A DNA stretch of 47,036 bases, from NCBI GenBank assembly GCA_029007115.1, contig JAQXHG010000010.1, positions 1 through 47,036 on the forward strand, written 5' to 3'. Every line of letters starts with the position of its first letter. The first letter of the stretch is position 1. The position numbers were made by a program, and so were the translations under genes. The notes under the pieces are model-generated. The model did no database searches, had not been told where the DNA came from, and was given only the letters and a program-made list of their open reading frames with translations. This stretch comes from a bacterium. GTDB taxonomy: Bacteria > Bacillota_I > Bacilli_A > RF39 > UBA660. Below, piece by piece: positions 26,099 to 37,983 of this stretch.

Positions 26099-27361
26099 AT
26101 GAGATATTTAAAAGTATTATTAATTTGTTTATTAGTTATATTAATGTTTGGTTGTAAAGATAAAACATATAATTATATTACCGAAGAAAAAGATGGTAAC
26201 ACTATTTATGTTATAAATAATAATAAATATATTGAAAGTAGTGAACAAACTAATTTAGTAAAAATAGATATCAGAGGATATGGAATAATAATTGCAGAAT
26301 TATATCCTTCAATAGCAGAAAAGACAGTCGAGAATTTTAAAAATTTAGTAAGTAGTAATTTTTATGATAATTTAATTTTTCATAGAGTTATAAAAGATTT
26401 TATGATACAAACAGGAGATCCTAATGCTGATGGAACAGGTGGTAGTGAAAAGACTATTAAGGGTGAATTTTCAGCAAATGGAATAGAAAATAGATTGTCT
26501 CATACAAGAGGAGTTTTATCTATGGCAAGAAAGGGAAGTAATCCTGAAACGGAAGATACTATGAATTCAGCAACTAGTCAATTTTTTATAGTTCATAAAG
26601 ATTCTGATTTCTTAGATGGAAATTATGCAGCATTTGGTGAAGTCATAGAAGGTATAGAAATTGTTGATAAAATTGCTAAAGTTAAAACAGATAATAATGA
26701 TAAGCCAATTAATAATATCATTATTAATAGTATAAGATTTGTAAATTCATATGAAAGTAGTATTGTTTTAAATTATAAAACAGAAGAAATTGATAGTGAA
26801 TTAATTTATAAAATAGAAGATAAAACATTTAAAGAGACTAATAAAAAGACAAATTTAGTTAAGATAGAAGTAAAAAATTATGGAATTATGATTGCAGAGT
26901 TATATCCAAAAATCGCACCAAAAACAGTTGAAAATTTTAAAAAACTAATAAGTACTAAATTTTATGATAATATGATATTTCATAGAGTAATAAAAGATTT
27001 TATGATACAAACAGGAGATCCTAATGCTGATGGAACTGGTGGTAGTGAAAAAACAATTAAGGGCGAATTTTCTGCTAATGGAATAGAAAATAAATTGTCT
27101 CATACAAGGGGAGTTTTATCTATGGCAAGAAGAGGAAGTAATCCTGAAACAGAAGAAACTATGAATTCAGCAACTAGTCAATTCTTTATAGTTCATAAAG
27201 ATTCTGATTTTTTAGATGGAAATTATGCAGCATTTGGTAAATTATTATATGGATATGATGTACTTGATAAAATTGCCAATGTTGATACTGATTCAAGTAA
27301 TGATAAGCCAATAAATCCTCAAAGACTTTTGAGTATAAGATTTGTAGAAGAAGGTGAATGA
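26099..27361 (+). CDS. Lipoprotein with two tandem cyclophilin-type peptidyl-prolyl isomerase domains
   Basis: 420 residues. A lipoprotein signal ends in LMFGC (Cys20), so the protein should be anchored outside the membrane. Two complete cyclophilin domains follow (about residues 54-215 and 250-415), each with FHRVIKDFMIQTGDP (catalytic Arg and Gln), RGVLSMAR, SQFFI and DGNYAAFG; Tyr replaces the usual Trp of eukaryotic cyclophilins. The domains share long identical stretches, and their DNA is nearly identical over about 270 bp. Proposed role: folding of secreted proteins, possibly the large surface proteins. A single domain is the norm in this family. Confidence 0.92.
   Translation: MRYLKVLLICLLVILMFGCKDKTYNYITEEKDGNTIYVINNNKYIESSEQTNLVKIDIRGYGIIIAELYPSIAEKTVENFKNLVSSNFYDNLIFHRVIKDFMIQTGDPNADGTGGSEKTIKGEFSANGIENRLSHTRGVLSMARKGSNPETEDTMNSATSQFFIVHKDSDFLDGNYAAFGEVIEGIEIVDKIAKVKTDNNDKPINNIIINSIRFVNSYESSIVLNYKTEEIDSELIYKIEDKTFKETNKKTNLVKIEVKNYGIMIAELYPKIAPKTVENFKKLISTKFYDNMIFHRVIKDFMIQTGDPNADGTGGSEKTIKGEFSANGIENKLSHTRGVLSMARRGSNPETEETMNSATSQFFIVHKDSDFLDGNYAAFGKLLYGYDVLDKIANVDTDSSNDKPINPQRLLSIRFVEEGE
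26390..27240 (+). repeat. Internal duplication of cyclophilin-coding DNA
   Basis: The segment at about 26390-26640 recurs at about 26990-27240 (600 bp apart) with few mismatches, including the shared ttttatgatacaaacaggag. This indicates a recent duplication or gene conversion within one gene. Confidence 0.88.
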
Positions 27362-29143: not shown

Positions 29144-30697
29144 ATGACAGATGTAATTATCTCCATTTTGCTTGTAGTAGTTGGATTGTTTGTTGGAGCA
29201 TTTATCATGATATTACTAAATAGATTTAGAATAAATGCTGCTCAAAAAGAAGCTGATAAATTAATTCGTGATGCTAAAAAAGAAGCAGAAAAAGCAAAAA
29301 GAGATGGTATCTTAGAATTAAAAGAAGAAAGTTATAAACTAAAAAGTCAAACTGATGCAGAGATTAAGGAAAAGAAAAAAGAACTTAATGAACTAAATCA
29401 AAGAATTGATAACAGAGAAAAAAGTTTAGACAAAAGAGATGAATTATTAACTCAAAGGGAAAAGAATCTTGATGATAAAGATAAAGATTTATTGGCAAAA
29501 CAAAAGGAAATTCAAGAAAAAGATGCAAAAATGGAGAGCATAATAAAAGAGCAAATTGCGCTTTTAGAAAAAATCTCTGGTTTTTCTAAGGAAAAAGCAA
29601 GAGAATTAGTTATGAAAAAAGTAGAAGATGAAATGAGTATTGAGATTTCTACTTATTTAAAAGAAAGGGAAGATGAGGCTAAATTAGAAGCAGATAGAAA
29701 AGCAAGAGAAATTCTTGTATCTAGTATGCAAAGATATTCTAATGATGTCACTAATGAGCAAACTGTTAGTACAGTGGAACTTCCAAATGATGAAATGAAA
29801 GGAAGAATAATTGGTAGAGAAGGTAGAAATATCAGAACTATCGAAGCTGTTACTGGAGTTGATTTAATTATAGATGATACACCAGAAGTAATAGTATTAT
29901 CTTCATTTGATCCGCTAAGACGACAAATAGCTAAAGTTACTTTAGAAACATTAATTAAAGATGGAAGAATACATCCAGCAAGAATTGAAGAATTATATGA
30001 TAAAGTTTGTGAAGATTATAAAAAGATCATTCGTGAGAAAGGCGAAGAAGCTTTATTTGAATTAGGTATATCTAAAGTTGATCCTGAAATAGTTGAGACT
30101 ATAGGAAAATTAGCTTTTAGAACTAGTTATGGTCAAGATGCATTAGCACATAGTAAAGAAGTCGCTCATTTAGCAGGACTTATGGCAGCTGAATTAGGTG
30201 AAAATGTAACACTTGCTAAGAGAGCCGGATTACTTCATGATATAGGTAAAGCAATAGATTATGAAATTGAGGGTAGTCATGTAGAAATAGGTGCTGATTT
30301 AGCTAAAAAGCATAATGAAGATAAAGTTGTAATTAATGCAATTGAATCCCATCATGGTGATAAAAAGGCAACATCAGTTATATCTGAGTTAGTTGCTATT
30401 GCTGATGCATTAAGTGCAGCAAGACCAGGGGCTAGAAATGACTCATTAGAGAATTATGTTAAGAGACTTGAAGAACTTGAAAATATTGGAAATTCAATTG
30501 AAGGTGTTGATAAGACATTTGCAATGCAAGCTGGTAGAGAACTTAGAGTTGTTGTCAAACCAGAAGAAATTGATGATTTAACAAGTTATAAAGTAGCAAG
30601 ACAAATAAGAGAAAAGATTGAAGATACACTACAATATCCTGGAACTATTAAGGTAGTAGTAATTCGTGAAACAAGAGCAGAGGAAGTAGCAAAATAA
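29144..30697 (+). CDS. rny: Ribonuclease Y
   Basis: 517 residues. This membrane-anchored endoribonuclease starts mRNA decay in Bacilli. It has an N-terminal transmembrane helix (residues 4-26), a long coiled coil (about 30-180, rich in E, K and D), a KH domain with MKGRIIGREGRNIRTIEA, and an HD domain with HSKEVAHLAGLM and LLHDIGKA; the second part ESHHGD is intact. Length and order are normal. The ribosome site is tggagg. It has its own promoter and terminator. Confidence 0.96.
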   Translation: MTDVIISILLVVVGLFVGAFIMILLNRFRINAAQKEADKLIRDAKKEAEKAKRDGILELKEESYKLKSQTDAEIKEKKKELNELNQRIDNREKSLDKRDELLTQREKNLDDKDKDLLAKQKEIQEKDAKMESIIKEQIALLEKISGFSKEKARELVMKKVEDEMSIEISTYLKEREDEAKLEADRKAREILVSSMQRYSNDVTNEQTVSTVELPNDEMKGRIIGREGRNIRTIEAVTGVDLIIDDTPEVIVLSSFDPLRRQIAKVTLETLIKDGRIHPARIEELYDKVCEDYKKIIREKGEEALFELGISKVDPEIVETIGKLAFRTSYGQDALAHSKEVAHLAGLMAAELGENVTLAKRAGLLHDIGKAIDYEIEGSHVEIGADLAKKHNEDKVVINAIESHHGDKKATSVISELVAIADALSAARPGARNDSLENYVKRLEELENIGNSIEGVDKTFAMQAGRELRVVVKPEEIDDLTSYKVARQIREKIEDTLQYPGTIKVVVIRETRAEEVAK

Positions 30698-30714
30698 TTA
30701 GCTACTTTTCTTTT
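30684..30714 (+). terminator. Rho-independent terminator
   Basis: AAGTAGC/GCTACTT stem spanning the rny stop, then TTCTTTTT. Confidence 0.8.
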
Positions 30715-30729
30715 TAATTAAAATAAGTA

Positions 30730-30758
30730 TTGACAAGTGTCTTTTTTACACATATAAT
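30730..30758 (+). promoter_or_regulatory. Consensus promoter of the NUDIX gene, with an inverted repeat in the spacer
   Basis: TTGACA, 17 bp, TATAAT: a perfect consensus and among the strongest in the window. The spacer holds GTGT-CTTTTTT-ACAC, an inverted repeat that could be an operator for the encoded winged-helix protein. It may drive the downstream five-gene set by read-through. Confidence 0.75.
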
Positions 30759-30776
30759 TAAATTGGAGATGAGATT

Positions 30777-31457
30777 ATGGAATTAAAAAATCCATTATAT
30801 AAAAATTTTGGTATTCATGTTGTATCTTGTATTTTTACTGTTGAAAAAGGTGAAGTAAAAGTTTTATTAATCAAAAGAAATAATAAACCATTTTATGGTT
30901 ATTGGGCTTTGCCTGGAGGTGGATTATATAATAATGAAACATTAATGGATGGAGCAAAAAGAGAACTTGAAGAAAAAACAGGTATAAATAATGTTAATTT
31001 ATCTATGTATGATATATTTGATGATATAAATAGATCTCCATTAAAAAGAATGATTGCAGTTTCATTTATTGGTGTTATTGACAATAAAAAAGCAAAGTTA
31101 TTTAGTGAGTCAAACAAAATCTCTACAATAGAGTGGTTTAATATTAATGAAGTTCCTAATCTAGCATATGATTATAATAAAATATTAAATTCTGCGATTG
31201 AAGAATTAAAAGAAAAAATACAAACTACTGATATACTAAAATCATTATTTCCAGGTGAATTTACTTTACCAGAACTTCAAAGTGTATATGAAACTATATT
31301 AAATGTAAAAATAGATAGGCGTAATTTTAGAAAAAAAATGATAAGTTTAAATTTAATTGTAGATACTAACAAAAGTATAAATTATAAAGGAAAAAAACCA
31401 GCTAAATTATATATATTTAATGAAAAGTGTAATTTTAAAAGAAAAAGCATTTTTTAA
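30777..31457 (+). CDS. NUDIX hydrolase with C-terminal winged helix (NrtR-like)
   Basis: 226 residues. The NUDIX box is complete: GGGLYNNETLMDGAKRELEE with Lys-Thr-Gly after (G-x5-E-x7-REL-x-EE-x-G). The C-terminal 70 residues (FTLPELQSVYETIL, DRRNFRKKM) form the winged helix found in NrtR/YjhB-type proteins, which in other bacteria are ADP-ribose-responsive repressors of NAD genes. It may be an enzyme, a regulator or both. It lies directly upstream of the five-gene metabolic/chaperone operon, a plausible target. A weak terminator follows at once. Confidence 0.85.
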   Translation: MELKNPLYKNFGIHVVSCIFTVEKGEVKVLLIKRNNKPFYGYWALPGGGLYNNETLMDGAKRELEEKTGINNVNLSMYDIFDDINRSPLKRMIAVSFIGVIDNKKAKLFSESNKISTIEWFNINEVPNLAYDYNKILNSAIEELKEKIQTTDILKSLFPGEFTLPELQSVYETILNVKIDRRNFRKKMISLNLIVDTNKSINYKGKKPAKLYIFNEKCNFKRKSIF

Positions 31458-31465
31458 TGCTTTTT
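31442..31465 (+). terminator. Weak or attenuating hairpin
   Basis: AAAAAGCATT/AATGCTTTTT stem with a 4-T loop overlapping the gene end. The T run belongs to the stem, so read-through into the next gene is likely; no clear promoter is seen between 31466 and 31508. Confidence 0.55.
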
Positions 31466-31508
31466 AAAAATAAACTAAAAGCGTAAAAAATACACATATG
31501 GAGGAAAT

Positions 31509-32399
31509 ATGATAAATGATATTAATTTAATTGCTACATTACCAAGGCTAGATGATAAATATTCTATTGATGAAATAATGAGGTGTAATGAAATAAGTAG
31601 TGTAAGATTTAATAGTGGTGTTGATAATTTAATGACTGCGAGTGAGATAGTAAGTAAACTTAAAGAGCTTAGTGAATTTTATCATAAAAAAATATGGATT
31701 GATTTAAAAGGAAGACAACTTAGAATTAATGCTTGGGCAGATCCTAGATATGATGTTATTGAACTTAATCATGATATAGAGGTTGAATATCCCGCTGAAA
31801 TTATTTTTAGAAATTCTACTAAAGCAAATATATTTAGAACTAGAAAAAATAAAATTACTATAGATAGGCAGCCACAAAGAGCGGTTGGTAAAGGACAATC
31901 TGTTAATATTATGGCTAAATCACTTTTAATTAAAGGATATTTAACTGATATGGATAAACAACTATTAATAGAAAGTTCAAAAGAAGGTTTAAATGACTAT
32001 ATGGCATCATTTGTTGAAAGTGAAGATGATTTAAAAGAAATATTATCATTTAATAAACAAGCAAATATAATTAGTAAGATTGAAAGTGTTAATGGACTAG
32101 ATTTTATAAATAATATAGATTATCCACTATCATTAATGGCAGCAAGAGATGACTTATATATAGAGACTAAAATGAATAAAAGTATGTTAAAAGCTTTAAG
32201 ATATATTATATCAAAAGATAAAAATGCAATATGTGCATCAAAAATATTTTCATCGTTAGAAAAGAGTGATATTCCAAGCCTAAGTGATTATGAAGATATT
32301 GAACTTATGCTGTTATATGGATATAGAAATTTTATGATACAAGATGATGTAAAAGGTCCAACATTAAAAAGAATTATTGAATGTTTTAAAGAGTTTTAG
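31509..32399 (+). CDS. Pyruvate-kinase-like TIM barrel protein lacking the C domain
   Basis: 296 residues, against about 470 for pyruvate kinase. Recognisable barrel motifs: NLIATL (start), VRFNSG (R33, N35; kinase RxNFSHG), DLKGRQLRI (D65, K67, R72; kinase D-T-K-G-P-E-I-R), LTDMDKQLL, ASFVES, SKIESVNG (K190, E192, the catalytic Lys and metal Glu) and MAARDDL (R213, D215). The lid (B) domain is shortened and the regulatory C domain absent. The ATQML Thr is replaced (ASKIF). Active-site residues survive, so phosphoenolpyruvate-type chemistry is plausible, but it is not a housekeeping kinase. First of five tightly packed genes. Confidence 0.75.
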   Translation: MINDINLIATLPRLDDKYSIDEIMRCNEISSVRFNSGVDNLMTASEIVSKLKELSEFYHKKIWIDLKGRQLRINAWADPRYDVIELNHDIEVEYPAEIIFRNSTKANIFRTRKNKITIDRQPQRAVGKGQSVNIMAKSLLIKGYLTDMDKQLLIESSKEGLNDYMASFVESEDDLKEILSFNKQANIISKIESVNGLDFINNIDYPLSLMAARDDLYIETKMNKSMLKALRYIISKDKNAICASKIFSSLEKSDIPSLSDYEDIELMLLYGYRNFMIQDDVKGPTLKRIIECFKEF

Positions 32400-32407
32400 G
32401 AGGAATT

Positions 32408-33808
32408 ATGAATCAATCATTTATAGTTAGTGGAAGTCAATTTGGTGATGAGGGAAAAGGTACTTTGTGTGATTATTTAACCTCAAAATACAATATTCAC
32501 GAAAATGTCAGATATAATGGTGGAAGTCAAGCAAGTCATACTGTTGTTAATGATAATGTAAGTCACAAATTTAGCCAACTTGGAAGTTCATCACTAAATA
32601 ATGATACAAAAACATACTTATCTTCTAATACAATAGTAAACCCTTTTAACATAGTAACTGAGGCTAAAGTATTATCACTCAAATTAAGAAATACCCCTGA
32701 AGAAATATTAAGTAATATTTATATTGATAAAGATGCTCTTATTGTTACTCCATATCATAGTTTACTTAACAAATTAAGAGAACTTAGTAGTAAAAATAAT
32801 AGAATAGGTAGTGTTGGTAGTGGTGTTAGTGAAGTAAATAGATTAAAAGATGAAACAGGTATTTATATAACTATAAATGATTTATATACACAAGAATATA
32901 TGGATAAATTATTAGAATTATTTGATTATACATGTTTATATTTAAATGAAAGAAGACATTTAATAGATGATAAATTATTTAATAAGTTAATAAGTAAAGA
33001 AGATATATTTTATTTAACTAATAAAAGAAATAGAGAATATATTATTAGTTGTTATTCTAATTTGATAGATAGTAATATATTAAATATAGTTGATGGAATT
33101 TTATCTTTTCATAAAAAAGGAAATGTATTATTTGAAGGCTCACAAGGCTTATTGTTAGATAAAAATTATGGTATTAAACCAAATGTTACAAGTTTAGATA
33201 CAACTAATAAATATGGTTGTGATTTATCTAAAGAGTTAAATATGAAAATGATTAAATATGGATGTATAGGTGCATATAATTCAAGACATGGTATGGGATT
33301 ATTACCAACATATGATAAGTCTTTACAAATAAAAGATTTAAACCAAACATATTCTTATTATCAGGGAAGCCCAAGATATGGTTGGTTTGATTGTGTACTT
33401 ACAAGATATTCACAAAGTATATTAAAAAATGATTATTTATTTATGTCTTGTATTGATAATTTATCAAAATTTAAAGAAATAAAAATATGTGATAGCTACA
33501 CATATTATGGTCAAATAGATGAAGAATTTAAAAATACATTTGAGTATTATATTGATTTAAATAGAATAATAATTAAAAATATAAAAAGAAATAGTAATAA
33601 TTTAAGATATTATTTATCTAAATGTATACCAAACTATATTATTGTTAATGGGTGGAATATAGATATAAGTGATATAAAAGATGTTGAAAAACTTCCTAGT
33701 GAAGTAAATGATTATATAAGTTTAATTGAATATCTAACAAATACTCACATACCAATTATTGGTATAGGTCCAAGTAGAAATCAAAAATTAGAAAGGAAAA
33801 TATCATGA
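32408..33808 (+). CDS. Divergent adenylosuccinate synthetase paralogue (PurA-like)
   Basis: 466 residues. The fold is clear: GSQFGDEGKGTL (D14, K17), YNGGSQASHTV (H44, the catalytic acid), FEGSQGLLLDKNYG, PNVTSLDTTNKYG, AYNSRHGMGLLPT, YGWFD and GIGPSRNQKL. Two specificity sites differ. The aspartate-binding TTGRRRRTG loop reads YYQGSPRYG, and the base-recognition TKLD reads SCID. The IMP-loop Arg in TTGRGIGP is also missing (SVGSGVSEV). GTP-dependent phosphoryl transfer may remain while both the nucleotide and the amino partner change. Ribosome site AGGAGGAA overlaps the stop of the gene before it. Confidence 0.82.
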   Translation: MNQSFIVSGSQFGDEGKGTLCDYLTSKYNIHENVRYNGGSQASHTVVNDNVSHKFSQLGSSSLNNDTKTYLSSNTIVNPFNIVTEAKVLSLKLRNTPEEILSNIYIDKDALIVTPYHSLLNKLRELSSKNNRIGSVGSGVSEVNRLKDETGIYITINDLYTQEYMDKLLELFDYTCLYLNERRHLIDDKLFNKLISKEDIFYLTNKRNREYIISCYSNLIDSNILNIVDGILSFHKKGNVLFEGSQGLLLDKNYGIKPNVTSLDTTNKYGCDLSKELNMKMIKYGCIGAYNSRHGMGLLPTYDKSLQIKDLNQTYSYYQGSPRYGWFDCVLTRYSQSILKNDYLFMSCIDNLSKFKEIKICDSYTYYGQIDEEFKNTFEYYIDLNRIIIKNIKRNSNNLRYYLSKCIPNYIIVNGWNIDISDIKDVEKLPSEVNDYISLIEYLTNTHIPIIGIGPSRNQKLERKIS

Positions 33809-34380
33809 ATATATTAATATCTGGTATGACTTGTAGTGGAAAAACTACTTTATCAAATAGATTGTCATATGAGTTTGATACATCAATGTTAAGACAAGAT
33901 GATTATTTTAAAGATAAAAAAAATATTCCAAGAGATGAAAATAATTTTTTTCTCTTTGATACTCCAGATGCGTTTGATATTAATACTTTTATAGTAGATG
34001 TATATAAATTACTTAATCTTGGTTATGTTTATTGTCCTATATATGATGTTAATAGAAATATGAGAACAACTAATAAATATAAAGTATTAAAAAAAGATAT
34101 AAATGTAATTGAGGGACTCCATACGATTGCATTATTAAGTAATAATATTAATTCACTTAAAATATACATGGACACTCCTATAGAAGAATGTTTGAAAAGA
34201 AGATTATTAAGAGACATTAGCAAATATAATATGAAAAAATTAGAAATAATAAGATATTTTTATGAAATAATGTTACCGCAATATAAAAAACATATAGAGT
34301 ATCAAAAAGAAATGGCAGATGTAGTAATTAATGATGATGATTTAGAAAGAAATATAAAACTAATAAGGAGAATGCTATGA
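33805..34380 (+). CDS. Uridine/nicotinamide-riboside-kinase-like P-loop kinase
   Basis: 191 residues. Walker A is GMTCSGKTT (residues 7-15); RQDDYFKDK (D32-D33) and FDTPDAFD match the substrate region of uridine kinases and also of nicotinamide riboside kinases (QDDFFKP...). VIEGLH and RRLLRD are further family motifs. It should phosphorylate the 5'-hydroxyl of a nucleoside or similar compound; uridine and nicotinamide riboside are the leading guesses. It overlaps both neighbours by 4 bp (ATGA), so its production is coupled to the PurA-like protein and to the J-domain protein. Confidence 0.78.
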   Translation: MNILISGMTCSGKTTLSNRLSYEFDTSMLRQDDYFKDKKNIPRDENNFFLFDTPDAFDINTFIVDVYKLLNLGYVYCPIYDVNRNMRTTNKYKVLKKDINVIEGLHTIALLSNNINSLKIYMDTPIEECLKRRLLRDISKYNMKKLEIIRYFYEIMLPQYKKHIEYQKEMADVVINDDDLERNIKLIRRML

Positions 34381-35411
34381 AAATACAAGATATAGTAAAT
34401 ATTTTAGAATATGCGAAGAGACCTATTGATGTATTTGGGGGATCTAGTAAAGAAGACGTTAAAAAAAGATATAAAGAATTTATTAAGATATGTCATCCAG
34501 ATTTAACAGTTGATAAAGACTTAGCAAATAAAGTAACTATATTATTAAATGAATACTATGAAAAAGCATTAATTGAACTTGATAAAGGTATATATAATAC
34601 TTATGATGAAAAAGATATTTTAATGAGTAATGATATTTTATTTGAGTTTAATATAAGAGGTAAAAAATATACATTTTATAAATATTTATGTAGTGAAGAT
34701 GTTTGTGATGTTTATGAAGGAATATGTGATGATGAAGTTATTGTTATGAGGATAGTAATGGATGAAGATGATAATAAGTTAATAAACCATGAAGAAGAGG
34801 TTTTAAGGAATTTAGATCATTATTCACTACCAAAAATAAAAACTAAATTAAAAATAAATAATAAAGATGCATTAATATTTAATAAAGATAATTATTTAAC
34901 TATAAGAGATATAAAAAGATATTATGAGAATATAAATGGGGAACATATTTGTTGGATATTAGAAAGATTATTATCACTAATTGGTTATTTACATTCAAAA
35001 AAAATAGTACATGGAAATATCAAAGAAGAAAATGTTTTAATAGATATTGAAAACCATAATGTACTTATTAAAGATTATACTTTATGTATTACTGATGCTG
35101 ATAAAATAGATAGTAAATATAAGATTATAAATGACTATTATACACCAAGTTATATAAATGATAAGAGTAGGGTATTACCTAGTGTGGATATATATGCAGT
35201 AGGATTAGTAGCAGTAAATTTATTAGGAGGTGATATAGAAAGAATAGCTTTACCAATATCAGTAGATATAAAAATTAGAACATTTATAAGAAAACTTTTA
35301 AGTGGAAAAGAGAATGATGCTTGGGCATTATGGGATGAATTAATTAATATTAGAAATGAAGTGTATGGCAGTAAAAGATTTCAAGTTTTAAAAAGAAAGG
35401 TTAATAGGTGA
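34377..35411 (+). CDS. J-domain protein fused to a degenerate protein kinase
   Basis: 344 residues. An N-terminal J domain has the Hsp70-activating HPD (residues 40-42, in ICHPDLTV). The kinase-like domain follows from about residue 88. The VAIK Lys position reads R (VIVMRIV, R125), the helix C Glu is retained (HEEEVL), HRD reads H212-G-N, the Asn of the catalytic loop remains (EENVLI, N219), and DFG reads DYT (233-235). DIYAVGLVAVNLLGG marks the F helix. Loss of the catalytic Asp suggests a pseudokinase that senses or scaffolds. A J domain in front suggests delivery of a client to DnaK. The stop lies inside the ribosome site of the vWA gene. Confidence 0.8.
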   Translation: MKIQDIVNILEYAKRPIDVFGGSSKEDVKKRYKEFIKICHPDLTVDKDLANKVTILLNEYYEKALIELDKGIYNTYDEKDILMSNDILFEFNIRGKKYTFYKYLCSEDVCDVYEGICDDEVIVMRIVMDEDDNKLINHEEEVLRNLDHYSLPKIKTKLKINNKDALIFNKDNYLTIRDIKRYYENINGEHICWILERLLSLIGYLHSKKIVHGNIKEENVLIDIENHNVLIKDYTLCITDADKIDSKYKIINDYYTPSYINDKSRVLPSVDIYAVGLVAVNLLGGDIERIALPISVDIKIRTFIRKLLSGKENDAWALWDELINIRNEVYGSKRFQVLKRKVNR

Positions 35412-35419
35412 ATTAAAAA

Positions 35420-36361
35420 ATGGGAAGTTATAGTTATGATAGAGATGTATATAGTGCTAGTAGTTATAGCAGTTGGGGTACGAGTAGTTACTCAAGTACA
35501 GTGTTTAAAAATACTAGTTTATCAGAAGATTTAGATCCAAAAAACAAAAAAATTGTTAGTAAAAGTAAAAATCCAATAATTATTGTTCTTGATGTAACAG
35601 GCTCAAACATAAATTTTGCAAGATTAGTATATGATAAGTTACCAATGTTTTATGGAGAAATAGAAAATAAAAAATATTTAGATGATTTTGATATTTGCAT
35701 ATGTGCAGTTGGAGATGCTAAATATGATAAATATCCTATACAGATTGGTACTCCTGCTAAAGGTATAGAAATAGATAATTGGCTTGAAAAAATTGTATTA
35801 GAAGGTTGTGGTGGAGGAAATAAAGTTGAGTCTTATGAATTAATGGCATATTATCTTGCTAATAATTGTGAATTTGAGAAAGATAGTAATCCAATAGTGT
35901 TCTTTATAGCAGATGAAGGTGCAGAAAAGATTGTTGATGAACATGAAGTTCAAAAAATTCTAGGAAGTAATTGTCAAGCAGGAGTTAATGCTTGGGAACT
36001 ACTAAATGAGAAATTTAATAATAATGTATTTTGTATGCTTAATAAATATTGTGGTACTAGTTTTGTGAACAATATGACAGATTCATGGAAAGAAGTATTG
36101 CCACATCAACATACAATTAGAATACCAGAAGAAAAAGCGATAATAGATTTAATACTTGGAATAATAGCTATTCAAAAGCAAGAATTAACTACATATGCTA
36201 TTGATATGAAAAATAGAGGACAAACAGAAAAAAGAATTGAGGGTGTAACAGAATCGCTAAAGGAATTAAGTGATTCACTTGCTCTTAGTACTAATATTGA
36301 AACTGATTTACCAGTAGAAATGAAATTAAGAAAAAGTGGTAATAAGGGAAGAAGATTATAA
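35420..36361 (+). CDS. von Willebrand factor A domain protein
   Basis: 313 residues. A Ser/Tyr-rich N-terminus (residues 1-35, for example SYSYDRDVYSASSYSS) precedes the vWA fold. MIDAS residues: D58-V-T60-G-S62 (DxTxS) after IIIVL, GGGNKVESYEL for the third site, and Asp in FFIADEG. No signal peptide or transmembrane helix is present, so it is cytoplasmic, like TerY-type and MoxR-partner vWA proteins. It probably binds a metal-dependent partner, perhaps the J-pseudokinase encoded just upstream. The charged C-terminal end (KLRKSGNKGRRL) is odd and basic. Confidence 0.8.
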   Translation: MGSYSYDRDVYSASSYSSWGTSSYSSTVFKNTSLSEDLDPKNKKIVSKSKNPIIIVLDVTGSNINFARLVYDKLPMFYGEIENKKYLDDFDICICAVGDAKYDKYPIQIGTPAKGIEIDNWLEKIVLEGCGGGNKVESYELMAYYLANNCEFEKDSNPIVFFIADEGAEKIVDEHEVQKILGSNCQAGVNAWELLNEKFNNNVFCMLNKYCGTSFVNNMTDSWKEVLPHQHTIRIPEEKAIIDLILGIIAIQKQELTTYAIDMKNRGQTEKRIEGVTESLKELSDSLALSTNIETDLPVEMKLRKSGNKGRRL

Positions 36362-36402
36362 TATAATTTAAGGTTTAATTAATTTTAGTATACAATTAAA
36401 TA

Positions 36403-36411
36403 TGTTATAAT
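36403..36411 (+). promoter_or_regulatory. Extended -10 promoter
   Basis: TGtTATAAT, 16 bp before the ATG at 36428, with the AGAAGG ribosome site between. Confidence 0.6.
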
Positions 36412-36427
36412 TAAAAGAAGGTTTTAT

Positions 36428-37144
36428 ATGAAAAAGGTATTAGAAAATGGAACAAGAGTGTTAATTTTTAAATATGTAAGAGGATGGAGTCCTAATCAAG
36501 ATGATGAACATTATATAAGTGGTGTAATTAAAAGTAGTAAGTTATCAGATGATTTATCATGTCATGGAAGTCCATACTATGAACAAATATATTTTGTATT
36601 AGGAGATGATGGTGAAGAATATTATGGAGTGTATGGAAGGGGTTTACTAGGTAATGCTTTTTTTAGAACTATAGAAGATCATATAACTTATTTAGAAACA
36701 GAAATATCTCAAAATAATAACCAAATTAAAAAATTAGAAAATATAAATAATAGATATAAAGAAATAATTAATGATTTAGAAAGACAAAAATTAGAATCAA
36801 TAATAGAAAAAATATCAAAAGAAAAAATATATACTATAATTGATAATTATTCTAAATTAGGAATATTGGATATTGCTTACATTTATTATAAAGATGAAAA
36901 TAATATATGTTTACTATTAGCATATAGTGACTCAAATAAAGAAATAGAAATGCTAGCTAATCATGGAGTCTTTATACATAATTTTGATGAAAAAAATAAT
37001 ATTAATTTAAAGATATATGCTATTTCTTCAAAAAATATTATTGATGATTTTTCATTATTACCAGGAAAAATAATTTATGATAGAAACGGAATATTAGATG
37101 ATAACCAACATATGGTATTAAATAGAACATTAAAAAGTAACTAA
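36428..37144 (+). CDS. Hypothetical protein with beta-rich head and coiled coil
   Basis: 238 residues, not recognised. The first 80 residues are beta-rich and aromatic (FKYVRGWSPNQDDEHYISG, YFVLGDDGEEYYGVYGRG), residues 85-130 look like a coiled coil (ETEISQNNNQIKKLENINN), and the remainder is a mixed alpha/beta domain with YIYYKDENNICLLLAYSD. No signal peptide. It has its own extended -10 promoter 66 bp after the vWA gene. It may be an accessory to the preceding operon or unrelated. Confidence 0.6.
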   Translation: MKKVLENGTRVLIFKYVRGWSPNQDDEHYISGVIKSSKLSDDLSCHGSPYYEQIYFVLGDDGEEYYGVYGRGLLGNAFFRTIEDHITYLETEISQNNNQIKKLENINNRYKEIINDLERQKLESIIEKISKEKIYTIIDNYSKLGILDIAYIYYKDENNICLLLAYSDSNKEIEMLANHGVFIHNFDEKNNINLKIYAISSKNIIDDFSLLPGKIIYDRNGILDDNQHMVLNRTLKSN

Positions 37145-37172
37145 TTATTAATATTCTCCAGAATTATACTTT

Positions 37173-37198
37173 AAAATCCATTTTAAAATGGGTTTTTA
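37173..37198 (+). terminator. Terminator merged with the next promoter
   Basis: AAAATCCATTTT/AAAATGGGTTTT stem (one G-T pair), T tract, then TATATGATAAAAT. Confidence 0.7.
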
Positions 37199-37200
37199 TA

Positions 37201-37209
37201 TGATAAAAT
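37201..37209 (+). promoter_or_regulatory. Extended -10 promoter after the T tract
   Basis: TGaTAAAAT 24 bp before the SDR start. Confidence 0.55.
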
Positions 37210-37233
37210 AATTAATAAAGAAAAGGTGATAAA

Positions 37234-37983
37234 ATGTTAGCATTAATAACAGGAGCATCTAGTGGACTTGGTCATGATTTTGCATATAAACTATCAAGTA
37301 TGGGATATGATTTAATACTAGTTGCTAGAAGTAAAGATAAATTAGAAAGTATTAAAAAAGAACTAAATACCAATATTAAAATTGAAGTAATGGATCTTAG
37401 TAATAAAGAGAATGCTTATAAATTATATGAAAAGTATAAAGGAAAAGTAGATTTGCTTATTAATAATGCTGGGTTTGGTTTATGCGGGTATTTTAACAAA
37501 ACTGATTTAGACGTAGAGTTAAACATGATTGATTTAAATATAACTTGTGTTCATGTATTAACTAAATTATTTTTAGGTGATTTTATAAAAAGGGATAGTG
37601 GTCATATATTAAATGTAGCATCAAGCGCAGCTTTTGAACCAGGACCACTTATGGCAACATATTATGCAACAAAGTCATATGTATACAATTTATCAATGGC
37701 AATATATGAAGAATTAAGACATAAAAAGAGTAATGTGAAAATAAGTATTTTATGTCCTGGCCCAGTAGATACTAAATTTAATAAAAGAGCAAATGTTAAA
37801 TTTAATGTTAAATCATTAAGTAGTAAATATGTTGTTGATTATACAATTAAGCATATGAATAAACTTATCATAGTACCAGGATTATTCATGAAACTTGGTA
37901 TATTTGCTAATAGAATTGTACCAAGAAAATTAGTTCTTAGAATTATATTTAAAATACAAGAGAGAAAAGTTGGTGGAGAATGA
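37234..37983 (+). CDS. Short-chain dehydrogenase/reductase
   Basis: 249 residues. The cofactor motif is TGASSGLGHDF (TGxxxGxG), followed by LVARSKDKLE (an Arg favouring NADP), LINNAGFG and the catalytic Ser in NVASSAAF with YYATK (Tyr and Lys). ILCPGPVDTKF is the usual motif after the active site. The closest general class is the DltE/YqjQ-like SDRs of Bacilli; the substrate is unknown. It overlaps the thioredoxin-like gene by 4 bp and heads a three-gene unit. Confidence 0.9.
   Translation: MLALITGASSGLGHDFAYKLSSMGYDLILVARSKDKLESIKKELNTNIKIEVMDLSNKENAYKLYEKYKGKVDLLINNAGFGLCGYFNKTDLDVELNMIDLNITCVHVLTKLFLGDFIKRDSGHILNVASSAAFEPGPLMATYYATKSYVYNLSMAIYEELRHKKSNVKISILCPGPVDTKFNKRANVKFNVKSLSSKYVVDYTIKHMNKLIIVPGLFMKLGIFANRIVPRKLVLRIIFKIQERKVGGE

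Follow-up and report, generated by a model that had tools for sequence, protein, structure and literature searches.

A gene pair encoding a diverged relative of adenylosuccinate synthetase (PurA-like) and a vWA-fold protein is conserved in three bacterial phyla and in many large phages. In the window (the whole stretch of 47,036 nucleotides analysed here) the pair lies within a five-gene operon, and we tentatively favour the view that it is the core of an accessory module, in which the PurA-like enzyme, obligately paired with the vWA protein, may couple a purine-like carbonyl to some amine that is not aspartate. The searchable open-access literature contains no description of the pair, which appears to be undescribed and is present in many large viruses and a few bacteria. 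The strict and widespread pairing, the re-tooled active site, and the invariant exposed glycine of the partner together suggest an unknown nucleotide or protein chemistry.

The five genes are all encoded on the forward strand between positions 31509 and 36361, with intergenic gaps of 8, -4, -4, and 8 bp (Table 1); this layout, and the folds assigned to the products in a preliminary description, are upheld by the ORF coordinates, Pfam, and AlphaFold models searched with Foldseek. The order of the five genes is the same again in L033, a genome of the same genus, and in L034, a Clostridia MAG from an uncultured organism, so the operon is more than a chance arrangement. The preliminary description is borne out in so far as this is an accessory, syntenic system distinct from the Ter type, with an altered PurA and a J-domain joined to a degenerate kinase; however, the five-gene Bacillota operon is not the essential unit, which is instead the PurA-like/vWA pair, often with the J-domain pseudokinase. 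A sixth operon member, encoding an NrtR-type regulator, had been overlooked.

Table 1. Features of the operon and its control region
Feature	Position	Strand	Evidence
Promoter (TTGACA, 17-bp spacer, TATAAT); the spacer palindrome GTGTCTTTTTTACAC is predicted NrtR operator 1 (site 30737-30755)	30730..30758	+	Sequence; aligned and conserved in L033, L134, and L137
NrtR-type regulator (NUDIX and NrtR winged helix)	30777..31457	+	Scores exceed the cut-offs of PF21906 (E 8e-21) and of PF00293 (E 1e-18)
Predicted NrtR operator 2, GCGTAAAAAATACACATAT, 5' of the five-gene operon	31481..31499	+	Two mismatches to consensus; 0.16 expected per window
Barrel of pyruvate-kinase type, C domain lacking; motifs of the PEP/metal site retained	31509..32399	+	
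PurA-like synthetase, altered substrate sites; core gene	32408..33808	+	
Uridine-kinase-like P-loop kinase	33805..34380	+	
J-domain plus pseudokinase	34377..35411	+	
vWA-fold protein, invariant N-terminal Met-Gly tail; core gene	35420..36361	+	

A profile was needed to retrieve the vWA family from viral contigs (a search with the single vWA protein gave no matches); the J-pseudokinase family profile was too divergent for scanning. Entered from the vWA protein, 77 of 80 viral loci contain a PurA-like gene, always on the same strand; entered from the PurA-like protein, 72 of 80 contain a vWA gene, which is every evaluable case (72/72), the other eight being four canonical PurA genes by motif, none of which adjoins a vWA gene (0/4), and four family members with less than 1 kb of contig upstream. 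Roughly half to two thirds of the viral loci also encode a J-domain pseudokinase. PurA-like and vWA genes are neighbours in Bacillota, Actinomycetota, and Alphaproteobacteria, in Mycobacterium, Rhizobium, and Vibrio phages, and in large viral contigs, and the same cassette is found in Bixzunavirus phages and on plasmids of Allorhizobium, Rhodococcus, Tsukamurella, and Acetobacter. Laboratory phages that carry the pair include the Bixzunavirus phages of M. smegmatis (PurA-like gp264, vWA gp262), Vibrio phage Va1, and the Rhizobium phages, in which "hypothetical" and "adenylosuccinate synthetase" are the only annotations given to these genes; purine biosynthesis is not a suitable label for phage PurA-like genes of this kind. 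The benefit of the module would most likely lie in phage-host or other genetic conflict; possible conflict-type genes stand beside only one of the few bacterial loci (pAtS4e).

The PurA-like protein matches Adenylsucc_synt (PF00709) over its whole length (residues 6-459, E 9.9e-72) and shares with PurA the fold, the phosphoryl-transfer residues, and about 25-30% identity, but its TIGR00184 score of 190.6 bits falls below the equivalog cut-off (395.6 bits), whereas canonical relatives score 501-559; in a quick tree the canonical PurA sequences fall into a single clade with support of 100. The roles of individual residues (phosphoryl transfer, aspartate loop, IMP phosphate) are here taken to be those generally known from structures of the E. 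coli enzyme. The equivalents of Asp13, Lys16, His41, and Gln224 (E. coli numbering) are retained and invariant in 69 PurA-like sequences. N38, in contrast, is replaced by Q, TT128-129 by S-C/V, and V273 by H; R143 is lost, and the aspartate loop TTxRxRR becomes [WYF]-Q-G-x-x-R. A canonical PurA of the same genus keeps the canonical residues at these positions. In the alignment the family keeps its phosphoryl-transfer residues, and its aspartate and 5'-phosphate (IMP-phosphate) sites have been remade. Such an enzyme would use up an NTP in phosphorylating a purine-like base at its carbonyl and would then join this to an amine other than free aspartate, with the vWA protein as the putative acceptor or presenter of that amine.

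Most copies occur in large DNA phages, and the PHROG_1211 annotation for the family reads "2-aminooxy adenylosuccinate synthetase", both as might be expected if the enzyme made an altered purine deoxynucleotide precursor for phage DNA modification, comparable to PurZ in 2-aminoadenine genomes. PurZ too is a phage homolog of PurA, but the similarity is weak and partial (E 3e-10 to the PurZ model over residues 6-141 only; 39.8 bits on NF038379 against a cut-off of 300; E 6e-6 to PurZ and 4e-63 to PurA among PDB structures), and a PurZ-type enzyme was rejected on this ground. The catalytic Asp13 is also retained, chromosomal and plasmid copies have their own NrtR, and the J-pseudokinase and vWA protein have no evident role in DNA modification, all of which make this explanation decidedly unlikely.

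The vWA protein has no credible match in Pfam and belongs to PHROG_2971, a family of unknown function. Its fold, named in the preliminary description, is corroborated by an AlphaFold model (pLDDT 86.7) that retrieves integrin beta-I/vWA structures in Foldseek (E 3e-6, probability 1.00) and by the MIDAS motif DxTxS, in which D58 and T60 are invariant and S62 nearly so. The N-terminal motif MG[GS][GS]x[WFY][SD] begins at the initiator Met, and the Met-Gly start is present in 72/73 and 65/65 sequences; the tail is poorly structured, with an exposed glycine that is almost never changed. A more specific form of the favoured reading, which we consider doubtful, is that the PurA-like enzyme works as a nucleotide-protein ligase: the N-terminal Gly of the vWA protein, after Met removal, would replace the amine of aspartate, so that a purine nucleotide would be carried covalently on the vWA N-terminus and used in phage-host conflict. 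If true, an enzyme of purine biosynthesis would have been repurposed to modify a protein in a new way.

The families proposed for the other enzymes are confirmed by Pfam, with all NCBIfam equivalog cut-offs missed. The pyruvate-kinase-like protein consists of the barrel only (PF00224, E 1.5e-12), with the C domain absent and a TIGR01064 score of 54 against a cut-off of 306, and the uridine-kinase-like protein belongs to the PRK/uridine kinase superfamily (PF00485, E 2.5e-15) but scores 107 bits against the udk NCBIfam cut-off of 220. Neither gene was found outside the three Bacillota loci, where the two may feed the PurA-like enzyme, the uridine-kinase-like protein by converting a nucleoside to an NMP and the pyruvate-kinase-like protein by a PEP-driven supply of NTP.

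The J-pseudokinase matches Pkinase (PF00069, E 6e-15) and, below the Pfam cut-off, DnaJ (PF00226, E 0.004); its AlphaFold model (pLDDT 92.6) combines a J-domain with a kinase fold, and its Foldseek matches are PLK1, PknB, and the DNAJB1-PKAc fusion (E about 1e-10). The HPD motif is present in about 40 of 43 homologs (H in 41, P in 40, D in 41), as expected of a J-domain. The Asp of HRD remains in only three and DFG is replaced by G/D-W, so an active protein kinase was rejected, in keeping with the degenerate kinase described earlier. The protein may recruit DnaK/Hsp70 to the PurA-like/vWA complex.

Loss of the substrate residues could also mean that the PurA-like protein has lost its activity and is a nucleotide-binding structural partner of the vWA protein, serving with the J-pseudokinase in DnaK-dependent remodelling of clients, for example in phage assembly or host takeover. 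A J-domain with HPD beside a vWA protein would suit such a scaffold, and MoxR-vWA and J proteins have been proposed to act in virion assembly of jumbo phages (PMC7824862). However, the catalytic residues, which a protein serving purely as a scaffold would have no need to retain, are 100% conserved in the 69 sequences, and no virion genes adjoin the bacterial copies examined; we therefore consider a scaffold distinctly improbable.

Ter systems bring together vWA proteins, kinase folds, and nucleotide-type enzymes, and the operon resembles those with a TerY vWA in this combination. It differs in its enzyme families, as the preliminary description had held while drawing the analogy, and no TerB/C/D, PRTase, or HAD was found by Pfam among the ten window proteins scanned in and around the operon. 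Ter-like signalling, in which a diffusible modified nucleotide (alarmone) is sensed by the vWA protein and the J-pseudokinase and is also read by NrtR, the vWA tail being a docking peptide only, is possible, if somewhat unlikely. It would explain why one operon holds two nucleotide enzymes and a PEP enzyme together with a NUDIX regulator that senses a ligand and a pseudokinase capable of binding one, and a peptide-binding chaperone role has been described for vWA proteins of conflict systems (PMC9503650); against it stand the missing Ter families and the minimal phage unit of PurA-like and vWA, a separate receptor or regulator being absent from many loci.

The ARG-centred NAD-ADPr systems (PMC9503650, section 3.8) have in common with the operon a Nudix-HTH repressor and a vWA chaperone, but the operon is without ARG, phosphatase, or effector nuclease, Pfam finds no ADP-ribosylglycohydrolase gene among the window proteins scanned, and that section mentions neither a PurA-like protein nor a J-pseudokinase. 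A vWA protein is likewise part of MoxR-vWA systems, which occur in settings of conflict or assembly, but the window operon encodes no MoxR AAA+ and its vWA family lies outside Pfam. PADLOC matches are generic kinase or NUDIX similarities only, and a known defence system was rejected.

The operon is carried by two of 18 genomes of the genus and missing from 16. Its site, between RNase Y and an SDR gene, is empty in two relatives (G533 and G524) and holds other content in three (G523, G532, and G058). The preliminary description would have been refuted by a sole purA and pyk with housekeeping activity, and the PurA-like and pyruvate-kinase-like genes are indeed the only ones of their kind in this genome, as they would be if this were a reduced genome whose purA, pyk, and udk served ordinary purine metabolism and glycolysis. 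However, purB is absent, and a same-genus genome (G527) has canonical purA-purB plus a PurA-like paralog, so the PurA-like enzyme does not serve AMP synthesis; unlike PurA it has no PurB partner here and adjoins a vWA gene in every evaluable viral locus. Canonical pyk is absent from the genus members tested, with or without the operon. The housekeeping explanation was rejected on these grounds and is extremely improbable.

The NUDIX and NrtR_WHD domains place the regulator in the NrtR family, with a score of 137.9 against an NCBIfam equivalog cut-off of 400. A homolog adjoins the module in six of seven distinct bacterial loci, and predicted operators flank nrtR on both sides in four genomes (the window, L033, L134, and L137), the second site being at the equivalent position in the latter three. 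The NrtR-like repressor would keep the operon off until an ADP-ribose-like or nucleotide ligand is bound. Operator-like sites elsewhere in the same genome show no excess (8 versus 6 in the control), and a genome-wide NrtR regulon was not seen. The role in NAD homeostasis suggested earlier thus has only the regulator's family in its favour: NAD/ADPr genes are not clearly enriched near viral PurA-like/vWA copies, with NADAR 4, NAMPT/NAPRT 4, NUDIX 2, NadA 1, and isochorismatase 1 among 202 proximal proteins, versus NUDIX 1, isochorismatase 1, and CTP_transf-like 2 among 98 proteins of the distal control. A single ARG-like ORF, named by eye, lies upstream of the operon in L033 only.

Re-examination of the window sequence confirmed the five open reading frames of the operon, with the coordinates and gaps of the preliminary description, and its family assignments for the first four genes were upheld by Pfam and NCBIfam (table below). 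The pyruvate-kinase-like (PK-like), PurA-like and uridine-kinase-like (Udk-like) enzymes all miss the curated equivalog cut-offs of NCBIfam; the PK-like protein keeps the PEP, Lys and metal motifs. Pfam gives no credible match for the fifth protein; its AlphaFold model (pLDDT 86.7) has the vWA fold first assigned to it, as judged by Foldseek, which matched it to integrin beta-I domains (E 3e-6, prob 1.00). The J-domain pseudokinase (J-kinase), modelled with pLDDT 92.6, matches both protein kinases and the DNAJB1-PKAc fusion. In a comparison of 43 J-kinase sequences, HPD is kept in about 40 and the HRD Asp in 3, and Trp193 and His227 are invariant residues of the family's own.

Locations of the operon, its regulatory region and associated features
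Feature	Location	Detail
Operon gene 1		pyruvate-kinase barrel without C domain (Pfam/NCBIfam)
Operon gene 2		adenylosuccinate synthetase relative (Pfam/NCBIfam)
Operon gene 3		uridine-kinase relative (Pfam/NCBIfam)
Operon gene 4		J-domain/kinase protein (Pfam/NCBIfam)
nrtR	window 30777-31457	NUDIX and NrtR winged helix
Hairpin then T-run	window 31444-31465	nrtR 3' end; possible terminator between nrtR and operon
Second predicted operator	window 31481-31499	expected 0.16 in window
Second predicted operator	L033 3667-3689	expected ~0.1 per locus
Second predicted operator	L134 6588-6610	expected ~0.1 per locus
Second predicted operator	L137 11593-11615	expected ~0.1 per locus
RNase Y-SDR interval	window 30697-37234; L134, L135, L137, L138, L139	variable insertion site in genus
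MIYIRK/MIYFRK family	L134:6674-7531, L137:10755-11582, L033:8961-9794	~280 aa, coiled-coil-like
Three ORFs just 5' of nrtR	L033:890-2894	ADP-ribosylglycohydrolase-like, HD-domain-like, uracil-glycosylase-like (named by eye)
Plasmid cassette (pAtS4e)	L035:12330-20672	between T6SS VgrG/phospholipase genes and AAA ATPase/DUF5682/DUF4132/vWA cluster
Small coiled-coil-like protein	L075, L080, L082, L097, L100, L105, L111, L116	about 115-130 aa, just before vWA; many phages without detected J-kinase
Partial vWA match, same-family genome	L239 (G632:C7:15769-16002)	profile 1-83, E 1e-13; open frame with no apparent end, which probably runs into masked sequence
Lipoprotein-like ORF	window 26099-27361	two tandem, very similar cyclophilin-type PPIase domains

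A second locus of the genus (L033) and one in a Clostridia MAG (L034) have the five genes in the same order. A smaller cassette (J-kinase, vWA, PurA-like) is plasmid-borne in Allorhizobium, Rhodococcus, Tsukamurella and Acetobacter, adjoined by an NrtR/NUDIX homolog that appears split in Acetobacter. Phage Breeniome (Bixzunavirus) encodes a ser/thr kinase (gp261), vWA (gp262) and PurA-like (gp264), PurA-like comes immediately after vWA in Vibrio phage Va1 and Rhizobium phage RHph_TM30, and 206 records of the phage collection match the vWA protein.

The pairing was examined from both sides in IMG/VR. Among the best 80 of 197 loci from a vWA profile search, PurA-like is present in 77 and J-kinase in 42; PurA-like shares the vWA strand in every one of the 77 and lies within 300 bp in 59. 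The best 80 of at least 527 loci from a PurA profile search have vWA in 72, always on the same strand and upstream in 71, and J-kinase in 55. Four of the eight loci lacking vWA have canonical motifs (NAGH, TRVG); the other four have family motifs and start <1 kb from a contig end. Because some contigs occur in both sets, the tests are not fully independent.

Residues equivalent to D13, K16, H41 and Q224 (E. coli PurA numbering) are invariant in the 69 PurA-like family members. N38 is replaced by Gln in 68 and V273 by His in all 69, T128-T129 becomes S/T-C/V, R143 is lost, and the counterpart of the TTxRxRR loop is [WYF]-Q-G-x-x-R, one residue shorter and without R303. The canonical PurA found in this genus retains the ancestral residues. 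In structures of E. coli PurA, the positions replaced here bind aspartate and the 5'-phosphate of IMP. In a quick tree, canonical PurA forms a single clade (support 100), the window, L033 and L034 sequences form their own, and plasmid copies nest in phage clades.

The vWA protein starts Met-Gly in 72 of 73 sequences of one set and in all 65 distinct sequences of a second, partially overlapping set, with a Shine-Dalgarno-like stretch before 61 of the 65 starts. Starts were picked near the expected position, and residue 2 played no part in the choice. The N-terminal pattern is roughly MG[GS][GS]x[WFY][SD]; model confidence here is low (pLDDT 51-56), so the tail is probably flexible.

With phosphoryl transfer kept and the aspartate and 5'-phosphate sites lost, we infer that PurA-like would activate a purine-like carbonyl and couple an amine other than aspartate to it. 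The obligate vWA partner, whose flexible tail carries an invariant free N-terminal glycine, is a natural candidate either to provide that amine or to dock it. In the Bacillota version, Udk-like and PK-like may supply nucleotides, and the J domain of J-kinase would recruit DnaK. In rival readings the product would be a diffusible alarmone or a precursor for phage DNA modification, or the proteins would form a scaffold complex; were the product a Ter-like diffusible nucleotide, the system would be less new than claimed.

Every fold in the module is already known, and the core is common to no known kind of system tested; newness is claimed for the system, not for its folds. No description of the pair was found in the open-access literature searched. 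For the terms searched, surveys of jumbo phages (PMC7824862), conflict systems (PMC7159879) and NAD-ADPr (PMC9503650) do not mention adenylosuccinate synthetase; the last describes Nudix-TF and vWA systems centred on ADP-ribosylglycohydrolase.

The preliminary description had allowed that the operon purA and pyk might be housekeeping genes. This was rejected, since a search of the window's own genome, where PurA-like is the sole purA match, found no purB, and G527, an operon carrier of the same genus, carries purB adjoining a canonical purA (528 bits), as well as the operon paralog (168 bits). No canonical pyruvate kinase was found in operon carriers or other genus members tested, yet it is present in other families of the class.

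The operon is accessory, present in 2 of 18 genomes of the genus and in 1 of 392 in the phylum sample. Its surroundings in the window are chromosomal genes, with no recognised prophage genes adjoining, and genus synteny comprises RNase Y, SDR, thioredoxin-like, DsbD-like and FemX-like genes. The site is empty in G533 and G524, with only about 60 bp between RNase Y and the SDR gene, nrtR and a MIYIRK protein occupy it in G523 and G532, and G058 has unrelated genes there. A two-gene acyltransferase/histidine-kinase-like insert is a further occupant.

The NrtR-type regulator gene, 51 bp 5' of the operon, is absent from the preliminary description. Upstream of it, TTGACA-17 bp-TATAAT contains a palindrome (consensus GTGTATAAAATACAC) within the spacer, an arrangement kept in four genomes of the genus, and a second copy lies between nrtR and the next gene in all four. 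In two of these (L134 and L137) that next gene encodes a protein starting MIYIRK/MIYFRK, not the operon; nrtR therefore seems to serve as a local switch for whatever fills the insertion site. A wider NAD regulon is unsupported, since a scan of the own genome gave no excess of operator sites (8 versus 6 in the reversed control). The same NrtR-type operator precedes the MIYIRK/MIYFRK family whether or not the five-gene operon is present.
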